A DNA stretch of 42,157 bases from contig JAVVPF010000026.1 in the NCBI GenBank assembly GCA_036655895.1, positions 1-42,157 of the forward strand. The letters are read 5' to 3'. Origin of the DNA: Cloacibacillus sp. Lineage in GTDB: Bacteria; Synergistota; Synergistia; Synergistales; Synergistaceae. The first letter of the stretch is position 1; every line of letters begins with the position of its first letter. Below, one piece after another: positions 3,548-6,478 of this stretch. The notes under the pieces are model-generated. The model saw nothing but the letters and a program-made list of their open reading frames with translations, ran no database searches and was not told where the DNA came from. The translations under genes were made by a program, and so were the position numbers.

Positions 3548-6226
3548 TTATATTTTAGAGAAAGCGCGCCGCGCGAGCTTCACGCATTCGGAGAGCAGCA
3601 CCACGGAAAAGCCAAGCAGCACTATCTTGCCCCATATCGCGAACGAGAGCGGAACTGTGTCGAAGAGGCCTCCGCCGTACTGCGTTATCAGCGCCTGAAG
3701 CGCGAAGGTGAGCGAAAAGACGCCTATCATCAATTTGTTGCTCGCGAAGTTGCGAAAGACGCTGACGTTTGCAAGCGCACGGCTGTTGAAGGCGTTGAAG
3801 AGCTGGCAGACGACAAAGAGTGTGAAAAGCAGAGTCGGAAGCTGTTCTTTCGCGCCGCCTATGAAGTTCGTCCAGTGCTGGGCCATGAATATCGCCGTGA
3901 TATAGAGCCCGTTTATGACGATGCTGCACATCATGCCTTTTGAAACTATGCCGTCGCTTCTTTTTATCGGAGGCTGGTCCATCAGGTCGCCGCGTATCGG
4001 CTCCAGTCCCAGCGTCAATGCTGGCGGCCCGTCCATTATGATATTTACCCAAAGTATTTGAAGCGCCGTGAAGGGCGCTGAAAACCCGGCCATGATCGAG
4101 ATGAGTATGACAAGCACCGACGAGAGGTTGACCGTCAGCTGGAACTGTATGAAGCGCTGAAAGTTCCTGTATATGCCGCGCCCCCACTGCACAGCCTGAA
4201 CGATGGTGGCAAATGAGTCGTCAAGCAGCACGATGTCGCTTGCCTCCTTTGAGACCTCTGTACCGGAGATGCCCATCGCTATACCCACGTCGGCGTTCTT
4301 TATGGCGGGCGCGTCGTTTATGCCGTCTCCCGTGACTGCGACGACGCTGCCAAGCGCCTTCAGCGTTTTTACGACGCGCATCTTTATTGCGGGCGTACTG
4401 CGCGCTATTACGCGAATGGACGGAAGTCTGAGCGCAAGCTCTTCGTCGGAGAGGCGTTCCAGTTCGCGCGCCTCCACGGCAAGATGTCCGTCGTCAAGAA
4501 TCCCCAGCTCGTCCGCGATGGCGGAGGCTGTTACGAGGTTGTCCCCCGTGAGCATCTTGATCTCAATGCCGGCGCCGCGGCACCGCTCTACGGCGGAAAA
4601 GACCTCGGCGCGCAGCGGGTCCGCGATGGCGGCAAATCCGTCAAAAGTCATGCCGCTTTCGATTGTCGAACGCGCCGCGTCATAGTCCGCGCAGGGAGCT
4701 ACGGCGCGGTGCGCGAAGGCGATGACGCGGCGCGCACGCGCCTGAAACTCGGCTATCTCACCTTCAGCCCTCCGCCTTTCCTCCGCGCTCATTGCGCAGG
4801 CGGAGAGTATTTTTTCTGGGCTGCCCTTGCTGTAGGCGACAAGCGACGCGCCGTCCGCGGCTATGGTCGTCATATTTTTCGTCTCAGACGAGAAGGGAAA
4901 AACGTGGACTATCTCGCTCTTTTCGCGGACGGCGCGGTAATCGCGGCCCGCTGCGTGCACGGCCGCAAGCAGAGCGCACTCCGTGGGGTTGCCTATGAAG
5001 GAGCCGCCGCAGTCATTGCGCACCTCAGCGGTGCTGTTCAGGCAGAAGTTGCCAATAAGCGCCTCGTCCGCCAAATCTTTTGGCGCAAGCCGCGCGCCGT
5101 TTGCTACCAGCTCTTTCACGGTCATGCGGTTTTCCGTAAGAGTGCCCGTCTTATCGGAGCATATAACGTTCACGCCGCCTATCGTCTCACAGGCGGCCAT
5201 TTTTTTGACGAGCGCGTTGTGCTTCGACATTTTGATGACATTTATCGCAAGCGAGACGGCGACGATGGTGGGCAGCCCTTCCGGGACGGCCGCCACGATG
5301 AGCACGATGCTGGTGATGAAGGCTTCGGAGACCGTTTCAAGCGAGGCGGCGCCACGCGCGATGAACGAGGCGAGCTGGATAAAAAAGACGGCGGCCGCGG
5401 CGCCCGTTGCGGCAAACGCTATTTTTTTACCCATGCGCGCCATTTTTTCCTGAAGCGGCGTGCTCGATTTCTCAGACGAGGCAAGCTCCCCCGCTATCTT
5501 TCCAAACTCCGTGCCGTCGCCTACGCCCGTCACCACAGCCGTACCCGCGCCCGCCGTCGCAAAGCAGCCGGAATAGATCATATTAGCGCGCTCCGCAAGC
5601 GGCGTATCGCAGTCGCCGTATACCGCCTCCGCCTCCTTGCGCGCGGGAGAGCTTTCCCCAGTGAGCGCGGATTCGTCCGCCATCAGCGCCGAAGCTGTGA
5701 GGAGCCTTGCGTCCGCGGGGAATTTGTTTCCCGTCTCGACGTTCAAAATGTCGCCCACCACTACGTCGCACTGCGGGATAAGCTGCGGCAGCCCGCAGCG
5801 CACGACGCGCACCTTCGTCTCGTCTCCCATTCTTGAAAGCGCCTCAAAGGCCTTCGCGCTGCGCCCCTCCATGACGACCGTGATGACGGAAGAAAGCGCT
5901 ATTGCCGCGATTATCCCGGCGCATTCGATAAAAACGGTCTCACGTCCGGTCATGCCGCGCGCCACGTTGACGCCTATCGTGATAAGCGCCGCCAAAATAA
6001 GCATCATGATCATCGGCTCGCGCGCTGAGGCTAGCAGCCGGCTAAACGTCGAGACCGGCTTCTGTTTTGTAAAGCTGTTTTTTCCAAAGCGCTTCCGGCT
6101 CGCCTTCACCGCGTCTGCGGAAAGCCCCACCGCCGCCTCCACGCCAAGACGCGCCAGCGTCTGTTCCGCGCTTTCCTGAAATGCCGCGCGCGCCGTTTCC
6201 TCATCTTTTCCAAACCGCATCTTCAT
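3548..6226 (-). CDS. P-type (P2A, PMR1/SPCA-like) Ca2+/Mn2+-transporting ATPase
   Basis: This is an 892-residue cation pump of the P2A group. It has an N-terminal cation-ATPase domain, the actuator loop TGES (about residue 190), the phosphorylation site CSDKTGTLT (Asp about 358), the KGSPE nucleotide-domain motif and the hinge GDGINDAP. Membrane helix 4 carries VPEGLP and helix 6 carries NIIMDGPP, the single-site pattern seen in PMR1/SPCA pumps, which carry Ca2+ and Mn2+. The start is ATG at 6226, about 8 bases after AAAGGA; a GTG at 6229 and an ATG at 6220 are alternatives. The gene is monocistronic, faces a convergent permease gene, and is preceded by a long leader with two terminators, so it is probably controlled by premature termination. 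Family is secure; the choice between Ca2+ and Mn2+ is open. Confidence 0.93.
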   Translation of the reverse strand: MKMRFGKDEETARAAFQESAEQTLARLGVEAAVGLSADAVKASRKRFGKNSFTKQKPVSTFSRLLASAREPMIMMLILAALITIGVNVARGMTGRETVFIECAGIIAAIALSSVITVVMEGRSAKAFEALSRMGDETKVRVVRCGLPQLIPQCDVVVGDILNVETGNKFPADARLLTASALMADESALTGESSPARKEAEAVYGDCDTPLAERANMIYSGCFATAGAGTAVVTGVGDGTEFGKIAGELASSEKSSTPLQEKMARMGKKIAFAATGAAAAVFFIQLASFIARGAASLETVSEAFITSIVLIVAAVPEGLPTIVAVSLAINVIKMSKHNALVKKMAACETIGGVNVICSDKTGTLTENRMTVKELVANGARLAPKDLADEALIGNFCLNSTAEVRNDCGGSFIGNPTECALLAAVHAAGRDYRAVREKSEIVHVFPFSSETKNMTTIAADGASLVAYSKGSPEKILSACAMSAEERRRAEGEIAEFQARARRVIAFAHRAVAPCADYDAARSTIESGMTFDGFAAIADPLRAEVFSAVERCRGAGIEIKMLTGDNLVTASAIADELGILDDGHLAVEARELERLSDEELALRLPSIRVIARSTPAIKMRVVKTLKALGSVVAVTGDGINDAPAIKNADVGIAMGISGTEVSKEASDIVLLDDSFATIVQAVQWGRGIYRNFQRFIQFQLTVNLSSVLVILISIMAGFSAPFTALQILWVNIIMDGPPALTLGLEPIRGDLMDQPPIKRSDGIVSKGMMCSIVINGLYITAIFMAQHWTNFIGGAKEQLPTLLFTLFVVCQLFNAFNSRALANVSVFRNFASNKLMIGVFSLTFALQALITQYGGGLFDTVPLSFAIWGKIVLLGFSVVLLSECVKLARRAFSKI

Positions 6227-6251
6227 CACACATCCTTTTTTGTCTTACAAT

Positions 6252-6297
6252 AAAAAAATGACCCTGCATCAAGCTCCGCGAGCCGAAACAGGGTCAT
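6252..6297 (-). terminator. Leader terminator 2 of the cation ATPase gene
   Basis: Read on the minus strand, a 9-bp perfect stem (ATGACCCTG, 6297-6289, with its complement 6266-6258) encloses a GC-rich inner hairpin and is followed by seven U residues (6258-6252). It lies entirely in the 5' leader, about 25 bases before the start codon, and so would stop transcription before the coding region. Confidence 0.8.
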
Positions 6298-6342
6298 AAA
6301 AAAAGACTCCATGCAGCTCTACGCAGAGCAATACATGAGTCT
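6298..6342 (-). terminator. Leader terminator 1 of the cation ATPase gene
   Basis: On the minus strand, AGACTCATG (6342-6334) pairs with CATGGAGTCT (6313-6304), with one weak pair. It encloses a second stem GCTCT/AGAGC and is followed by seven U residues (6304-6298). It stands one base before leader terminator 2, so the leader carries two complete intrinsic terminators in tandem. Confidence 0.8.
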
Positions 6343-6449
6343 CGTTATTTAAGACAAGCCAGACTTTTTACTGCCTAAAGCCAAGATGTTGACTTGCCAC
6401 GCGTCAAACGCGCCACTACTCCCTCAAGGGTGTTTTAAATTGTCTGACT
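6343..6449 (-). ncRNA. Leader RNA, possible yybP-ykoY-like metal-sensing riboswitch
   Basis: This is the part of the ATPase leader upstream of the two terminators. It can fold: GCGCGU/ACGCGU make a tight hairpin, and AGACAA near the 5' end pairs with UUGUCU near the 3' end, which would close an aptamer of about 100 bases. It contains GGGAGUAG (6423-6416) followed by GUCAACAU (6393-6386), in the order and roughly the spacing I remember for the conserved blocks of the yybP-ykoY (Mn2+) riboswitch, a class often found before P-type ATPases and other metal exporters. The usual downstream GGCAAGACC-like block is not obvious, so the class is uncertain. A structured leader with terminators is well supported; the ligand is inference. 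Confidence 0.45.
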
Positions 6450-6478
6450 AAATTAACATCACAAATATTTTTTGTCAA
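6450..6478 (-). promoter_or_regulatory. Promoter of the cation ATPase leader
   Basis: On the minus strand a consensus TTGACA (6478-6473) stands 17 bases from TAATTT (6455-6450). Transcription would begin near 6443, just at the 5' strand of the predicted aptamer, leaving a leader of about 215 bases. Confidence 0.6.

Follow-up and report, generated by a model that had tools for sequence, protein, structure and literature searches.

The window, which is the whole 42,157-nucleotide stretch that was analysed, encodes a P-type ATPase on its minus strand. The leader of this gene occupies approximately positions 6478-6230, and all of its elements lie on the minus strand as well. The ATPase contains the Pfam domains Cation_ATPase_C and E1-E2_ATPase, and the TIGR models that score best on it are those of PMCA-type and PMR1-type Ca2+ ATPases (TIGR01517, 650.8 bits; TIGR01522, 575.7 bits). 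Read 5ʹ to 3ʹ, the leader is made up of a promoter, an aptamer-like segment, terminator 1, terminator 2, a ribosome-binding site, and the start codon (Table 1).

Table 1. Elements of the ATPase leader and the gene behind it, in window coordinates.
Feature	Positions	Strand	Details and basis
Promoter	6450-6478	-	-35 TTGACA (6473-6478), 17-nt spacer, extended -10 TGTTAATTT, TGT-TAATTT (6450-6458); sequence
Aptamer, Mn2+-riboswitch type, three-way junction form	6332-6432	-	Match to covariance model R1, covariation
P1.1 5ʹ strand (switch helix)	6423-6428	-	Alignments A3/A4; one U-U mismatch in the window
L1 5ʹ half, GGAGUA	6417-6422	-	Invariant in 26 leaders
P2 hairpin	6399-6413	-	Covariation
P3.1/P3.2 arm with internal loop L3	6353-6398	-	Covariation; L3 AACAUCUU at 6383-6390, opposite U 6361
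7-nt linker UUAAAUA in place of P4	6346-6352	-	Alignment A2
Third conserved block AACGAGAC	6338-6345	-	P1.2 3ʹ strand (AC), L1 3ʹ half (GAGA), first P1.1 3ʹ bases; P1.2 varies on both sides
P1.1 3ʹ strand CUCAUG, also 5ʹ arm of terminator 1	6334-6339	-	Sequence
Terminator 1, arms A and B	6298-6341	-	Hairpin 6341-6305, -15.5 kcal/mol, then U7
Terminator 2, arms C and D	6251-6297	-	Hairpin 6297-6258, -23.6 kcal/mol, then U7 tract
Ribosome-binding region AAAAAAGGAUG	6231-6241	-	Sequence
P-type IIA/IIB Ca2+/Mn2+-type ATPase, 893 aa, predicted regulated gene	3548-6229	-	TIGR and Pfam matches

An earlier note on this DNA had described a promoter, a foldable segment with GGGAGUAG and GUCAACAU blocks, and two complete intrinsic terminators in close succession, and all of these are present. 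The foldable segment carries GGGAGUAG at 6423-6416 together with GUCAACAU. Both promoter hexamers are conserved, with a diverged spacer, in two relatives (G029 and G015) that belong to a different genus within the family. These two have the closest leaders, in which the aptamer is kept and both terminators are kept with altered arms. The window leader is predicted to fold 4.7 standard deviations more stably than its dinucleotide shuffles, none of 200 being equally stable. A simple consensus scan for terminators and promoters missed both hairpins and the promoter, since its criteria were unbroken stems, short loops, and a -10 close to consensus. When the leader was compared by blast with 61 genomes, only two genuine matches were obtained besides the leader itself, and the remainder were short chance matches.

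More distant relatives were reached with R1, a covariance model made from 14 leaders from which the window, its genome, and close relatives were excluded. R1 matches the window at 6332-6432 with 80.4 bits (E=1.2e-20). This match supports the suggestion of the earlier note that the leader holds a divergent Mn2+ sensor of yybP-ykoY type and a platform for transcription termination, as does the third conserved block, which the note had called not clear and which is present as AACGAGAC at 6345-6338. The predicted structure consists of P1.1 (CAUGAG/CUCAUG), L1 (GGAGUA/GAGA), a P1.2 of two pairs, P2, and P3 with the internal loop L3. Within it, the L1 motif GGGAGUA (6423-6417) is accompanied by its 3ʹ partner RAGAC (6343-6339) and the short P1.2. 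Covariation supports P1.1, P1.2, P2, and P3. In a sequence-only alignment, two-sided changes occur in 12 of the 24 pairs; among 58 leaders fitted to the model, a procedure that leans towards the model, they occur in 18 of 24, with 96% of cells paired and a score reached by none of 500 shuffles. The two pairs of P1.2 alone appear as GC/AU/GU and UA/CG/UG across leaders, and the core bases of L1 and L3 are invariant in 26 leaders. Immediately 5ʹ of P1.1 lies a conserved CCC that could pair with arm D in the folds, too inconsistently to support a claim.

Terminator 2 directly adjoins the 3ʹ end of terminator 1, and the arms of the two hairpins can also pair with each other. In the window, the A:D pairing is strong (-25.1 kcal/mol, z -4.2), and the B:C pairing (-14.7 kcal/mol, z -1.0) is not significant alone. 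In the predicted fold of the window with P1.1 enforced, B is paired with C and the remainder of A with D. Across a first set of 18 two-hairpin leaders, the mean z was -2.27 for B:C (p 2e-6) and -3.90 for A:D (p 5e-7); the control pairings A:C and B:D lay near +0.4 and are not complementary. An initial idea that B:C alone matters was widened at this point, A:D being equally strong. In the first set, B:C was no better than expected from the similarity of A and C (p 0.25). A further 16 Clostridial leaders, whose arms were called automatically by a fixed procedure, gave z values of -3.28 for B:C (p 6e-8) and -2.73 for A:D (p 3e-4) with nonsignificant controls, and cognate arms paired better than swapped arms (p 5e-5 and 3.5e-4). 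Over 33 leaders, B:C and A:D are each stronger than hairpin similarity predicts (p 0.0013 each), although all of these p-values are somewhat optimistic since some of the tested leaders are mutually related. Numbering the arms 1 to 4, exclusive 1:2, 2:3, and 3:4 pairings beyond chance are thus found across the relatives; taken by itself, the window shows strong 1:2, 3:4, and 1:4 pairings and a nonsignificant 2:3.

This complementarity might also have another origin. Under one alternative, the leader is a Mn2+ riboswitch in which terminator 2 is a mere fail-safe duplicated from terminator 1, and the cross-pairing has no regulatory role. A tandem duplication would yield complementarity of both A to D and B to C, many leaders have one terminator only, and in the window terminator 1 has a U-tract of its own and B:C is not significant by itself. 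However, both cross-pairings exceed what arm similarity predicts over the 33 leaders, and some leaders have a B that is completely complementary to C and not to A. Moreover, hairpin 1 is without a U-tract in several lineages (leaders L133, L135, L035, L046, L048, L163, L168, L174, and L175), so that there the aptamer could act, through P1.1, on the sole terminator only by way of B:C. The duplication account is therefore considered possible but rather unlikely, and a relay that acts on both terminators is preferred. Because terminator 2 (-23.6 kcal/mol) is more stable than B:C in the window, antitermination by this relay would have to be kinetic, and the argument for the relay in the window draws on its relatives and on kinetics. 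A further potential pairing spans the same region: UUGUCUUA in P3 and the linker (6357-6350) is fully complementary to UAAGACAA (6247-6240), which lies just before the ribosome-binding site. The two could possibly form an alternative helix around both terminators, and leader L036 has a similar, longer match.

The genes found behind the element bear on its ligand. About half of the 80 homologous ATPase loci examined in other genomes contain GGGAGUAG, in most cases with GUCAACA 20-35 nucleotides later, at 160-300 nucleotides before the gene, and several phyla have this pair of motifs ahead of orthologous ATPases. The leader consensus reads CAUGAGGGAGUAGUU-(P2)-GGCAAGUCAACAUACUGGCC..GGCCUGGCUUGCCUUAAAUAACGAGACUCAUG. 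In the phylum of the window, R1 finds the element in 14 of 188 genomes, where the genes 3ʹ of it encode the ATPase, MntP, or GDT1/UPF0016 and, at one locus (L142), a protein of the Na+/Ca2+-exchanger family, PF01699. The mntP gene of the window's own genome is without such a leader and starts immediately where the gene before it ends. In a Clostridial sample, comprising 391 genomes of the class that contains Clostridium transplantifaecale, R1 at E<=0.001 is positive in 121 genomes. The 29 best-scoring Clostridial loci, assigned by motif and by eye with Pfam confirmation on samples, precede approximately 15 MntP genes, 9 P-type ATPases, and 5 ABC transporters. Five Clostridial genomes (L163, L164, L165, L167, and L174) have the element before an ABC transporter ATPase that looks MacB/LolD-like by eye, possibly a new Mn2+-controlled transporter. 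The element may also occur more than once at a locus. L036 has two separate copies, at 694-797 before mntP and at 2280-2375 before the ATPase, about 1.6 kb apart, and tandem aptamers whose starts are approximately 145-165 nucleotides apart lie upstream of a single gene at G211:C60 (4831-4927 and 4975-5067) and also in L085 and L105.

Because the element is associated with MntP and GDT1, Mn2+ is its most likely ligand, and loop L3 points in the same direction. In the crystal structure of the X. oryzae aptamer, L3 is ACA48-U49-ACU52, and A48 contacts Mn2+ via N7 (PMC6754395). The family consensus of L3, AACAUACU, is identical to L3 of the X. oryzae Mn2+ aptamer and to the loop of the E. coli mntP leader. 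In the window, L3 is AACAUCUU (6390-6383), with CUU where the family has ACU; the metal-contacting adenosine is retained at 6387, and CAACA is invariant. This substitution, together with the resemblance of the ATPase to Ca2+ pumps, might suggest that an aptamer with the Mn2+ fold now responds to a different ion, with Ca2+ or some other divalent ion that the pump handles as the most likely candidates; according to a review, Ca2+ is bound besides Mn2+ by the mgtA aptamer of S. pneumoniae (PMC9495176). Such retuning seems improbable, given that the same RNA stands ahead of the dedicated Mn2+ exporter genes mntP and GDT1 in many genomes and that the metal-contacting A and the CAAC preceding it do not vary. 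The position of the RNA ahead of MntP and GDT1 and an L3 that corresponds to the known Mn2+ loop also count against the earlier note's option of a different metal sensor.

The place of the element within the yybP-ykoY class requires closer definition. A search with RF00080, which the earlier note had named as its check and as part of its refuting condition, gave no match on the window at the gathering threshold of 45 bits or at E<=10, and none of the other Rfam families reaches its gathering score there; sroE (15.1 bits) and L10_leader (13.2 bits), the highest of the weak scores, were judged to be chance. RF00080 (177 positions and a cut-off of 45 bits in Rfam 15) also leaves the control genome of L. 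lactis, whose aptamer has been crystallised, below its cut-off. On the same 391 Clostridial-class genomes, it yields no match above the cut-off and 30 below it, approximately 12 of which coincide with R1 sites. The cut-off, failing on these genomes and on the control, thus marks the reach of the model and not the limits of the class, and the model may need re-seeding. Control of Mn2+ efflux appears to be under-annotated in many gut and anaerobic bacteria, as 121 of 391 genomes are positive with R1 and none with RF00080.

The canonical crystal forms have a four-way junction with P4, which the window element does not form, its place being taken by the UUAAAUA linker. Helices read by eye indicate that both P4 and P2 are present in the ATPase leaders of C. 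polyendosporum and C. lacusfryxellense and that P4 occurs without P2 in those of Desulfosporosinus and Eubacterium. Intermediate leaders that keep P4 (L058, L104, and L105) score 21-29 bits with R1, and the C. polyendosporum leader (L058) scores 36.4 bits with RF00080, under the cut-off of 45. The absence of P4 is not unheard of, since a review describes a three-way member of the class, the Streptococcus mgtA Mn2+ riboswitch (PMC9495176). As the element neither passes the RF00080 cut-off nor has the P4 helix, it is classed here as a variant and not as an ordinary yybP-ykoY member.

The lack of an RF00080 match and the missing P4 could also be expected if a riboswitch of different origin, for a metal or a metabolite, had come to resemble yybP-ykoY by convergence. 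This explanation is very improbable: the intermediates that keep P4 link the two forms, L1, P1.2, P3, and L3 correspond in their order and size, and R1 reaches canonical members as well, namely the E. coli mntP leader (E=0.004) and the Romboutsia leader (E=0.001). Very probably, the window element shares ancestry with the yybP-ykoY Mn2+ riboswitch. That there is no riboswitch at all, only an ordinary two-terminator leader or a transcription start downstream of the terminators, is scarcely credible in view of the covariation, the conservation across phyla, and the conserved promoter hexamers upstream of the aptamer, even though the promoter scan listed nothing and the case for a riboswitch is one of sequence.

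The preferred reading, held with considerable confidence, sees in the leader a compact three-way riboswitch of the yybP-ykoY (Mn2+) kind that turns transcription ON, with a relay that would act on both terminators. Comparative sequence analysis demonstrates the presence of the element, its homology, structure, covariation, and gene association, and the complementarity of A:B, C:D, B:C, and A:D across relatives. The published mechanism of Mn2+ riboswitches, in which Mn2+-stabilised P1.1 prevents the terminator (PMC11087558), supplies both the ON sign and the antiterminator role assigned to P1.1; by this analogy, the switch in the window is probably ON. Arm A begins with the 3ʹ strand of P1.1, CUCAUG, so a formed aptamer would prevent hairpin 1. 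If P1.1 blocked hairpin 1 alone, however, terminator 2 would stay in place, and it is here that B:C, as a presumed antiterminator, would carry the relay in the cell. At high cellular Mn2+, an ion between L1 and L3 would dock the two legs of the aptamer and stabilise P1.1, which would hold CUCAUG of arm A and block terminator 1. Arm B, freed in this way, would pair with arm C and disarm terminator 2, and the efflux ATPase would be transcribed. At low Mn2+, arm A would be free, A:B and C:D would form, and transcription would stop at U-tract 1 or 2. Should B:C form by mistake at low Mn2+, A could still pair with D and restore the stop.

If the arms do cross-pair, one aptamer helix would open both terminators, which offers a testable answer to the question of why there are two; as a relay, the arrangement would also include a fail-safe that tightens the OFF state. 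More broadly, a widespread, Rfam-invisible subgroup of Mn2+ riboswitches may well use a four-arm relay like that of the trp attenuator, with the switch helix of the aptamer in place of the ribosome, so that a single metal-sensing helix would control two serial terminators or, via a hairpin without a U-tract, a distant one. This general proposal is advanced with moderate confidence. A search of open-access literature, in itself weak evidence, found no report of such tandem terminators in a riboswitch, and likewise none of the size of the three-way subgroup. The compact three-way form appears to retain the Mn2+ site without P4 and may thus represent a minimal aptamer for structural work.

Compared with known systems, the window-type element is closest to the yybP-ykoY Mn2+ riboswitch, represented by the structures PDB 4Y1I (L. 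lactis) and PDB 6N2V (X. oryzae). The element and this riboswitch both have a P1.1 switch helix, L1 of the form GGAGUA/RAGA, a 2-bp P1.2, P2, and P3 with an 8x1 internal loop L3; for L1, P1.2, P3, and L3 the agreement extends to order, size, and sequence. Likewise, both lie upstream of Mn2+ exporters and have P1.1 in competition with a terminator. Unlike canonical members, the window-type element is a three-way junction with the UUAAAUA linker instead of P4, has CAUGAG/CUCAUG as its P1.1, is unseen by RF00080, and often has two hairpins in its platform. In the attenuator of the trp operon, the 1:2 and 3:4 pairings terminate, 2:3 antiterminates, and whatever holds segment 1 decides between them. 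The proposed relay has the same four segments and the same topology of 1:2 and 3:4 versus 2:3. However, segment 1 would here be held by an aptamer helix and not by the ribosome, A:B can itself terminate, and A pairs with D as well. The Streptococcus mgtA riboswitch, as summarised in a review, shares the three-way junction and controls a Mn2+/Ca2+ P-type ATPase (PMC9495176). In corrinoid riboswitch platforms, both activating and repressing, mutually exclusive helix chains set the sign of the response, as is proposed here, and in the activating platform the aptamer-side helix is itself the antiterminator (PMC10653944). These platforms differ from the window element in having a single terminator, another ligand, and another fold (PMC10653944).
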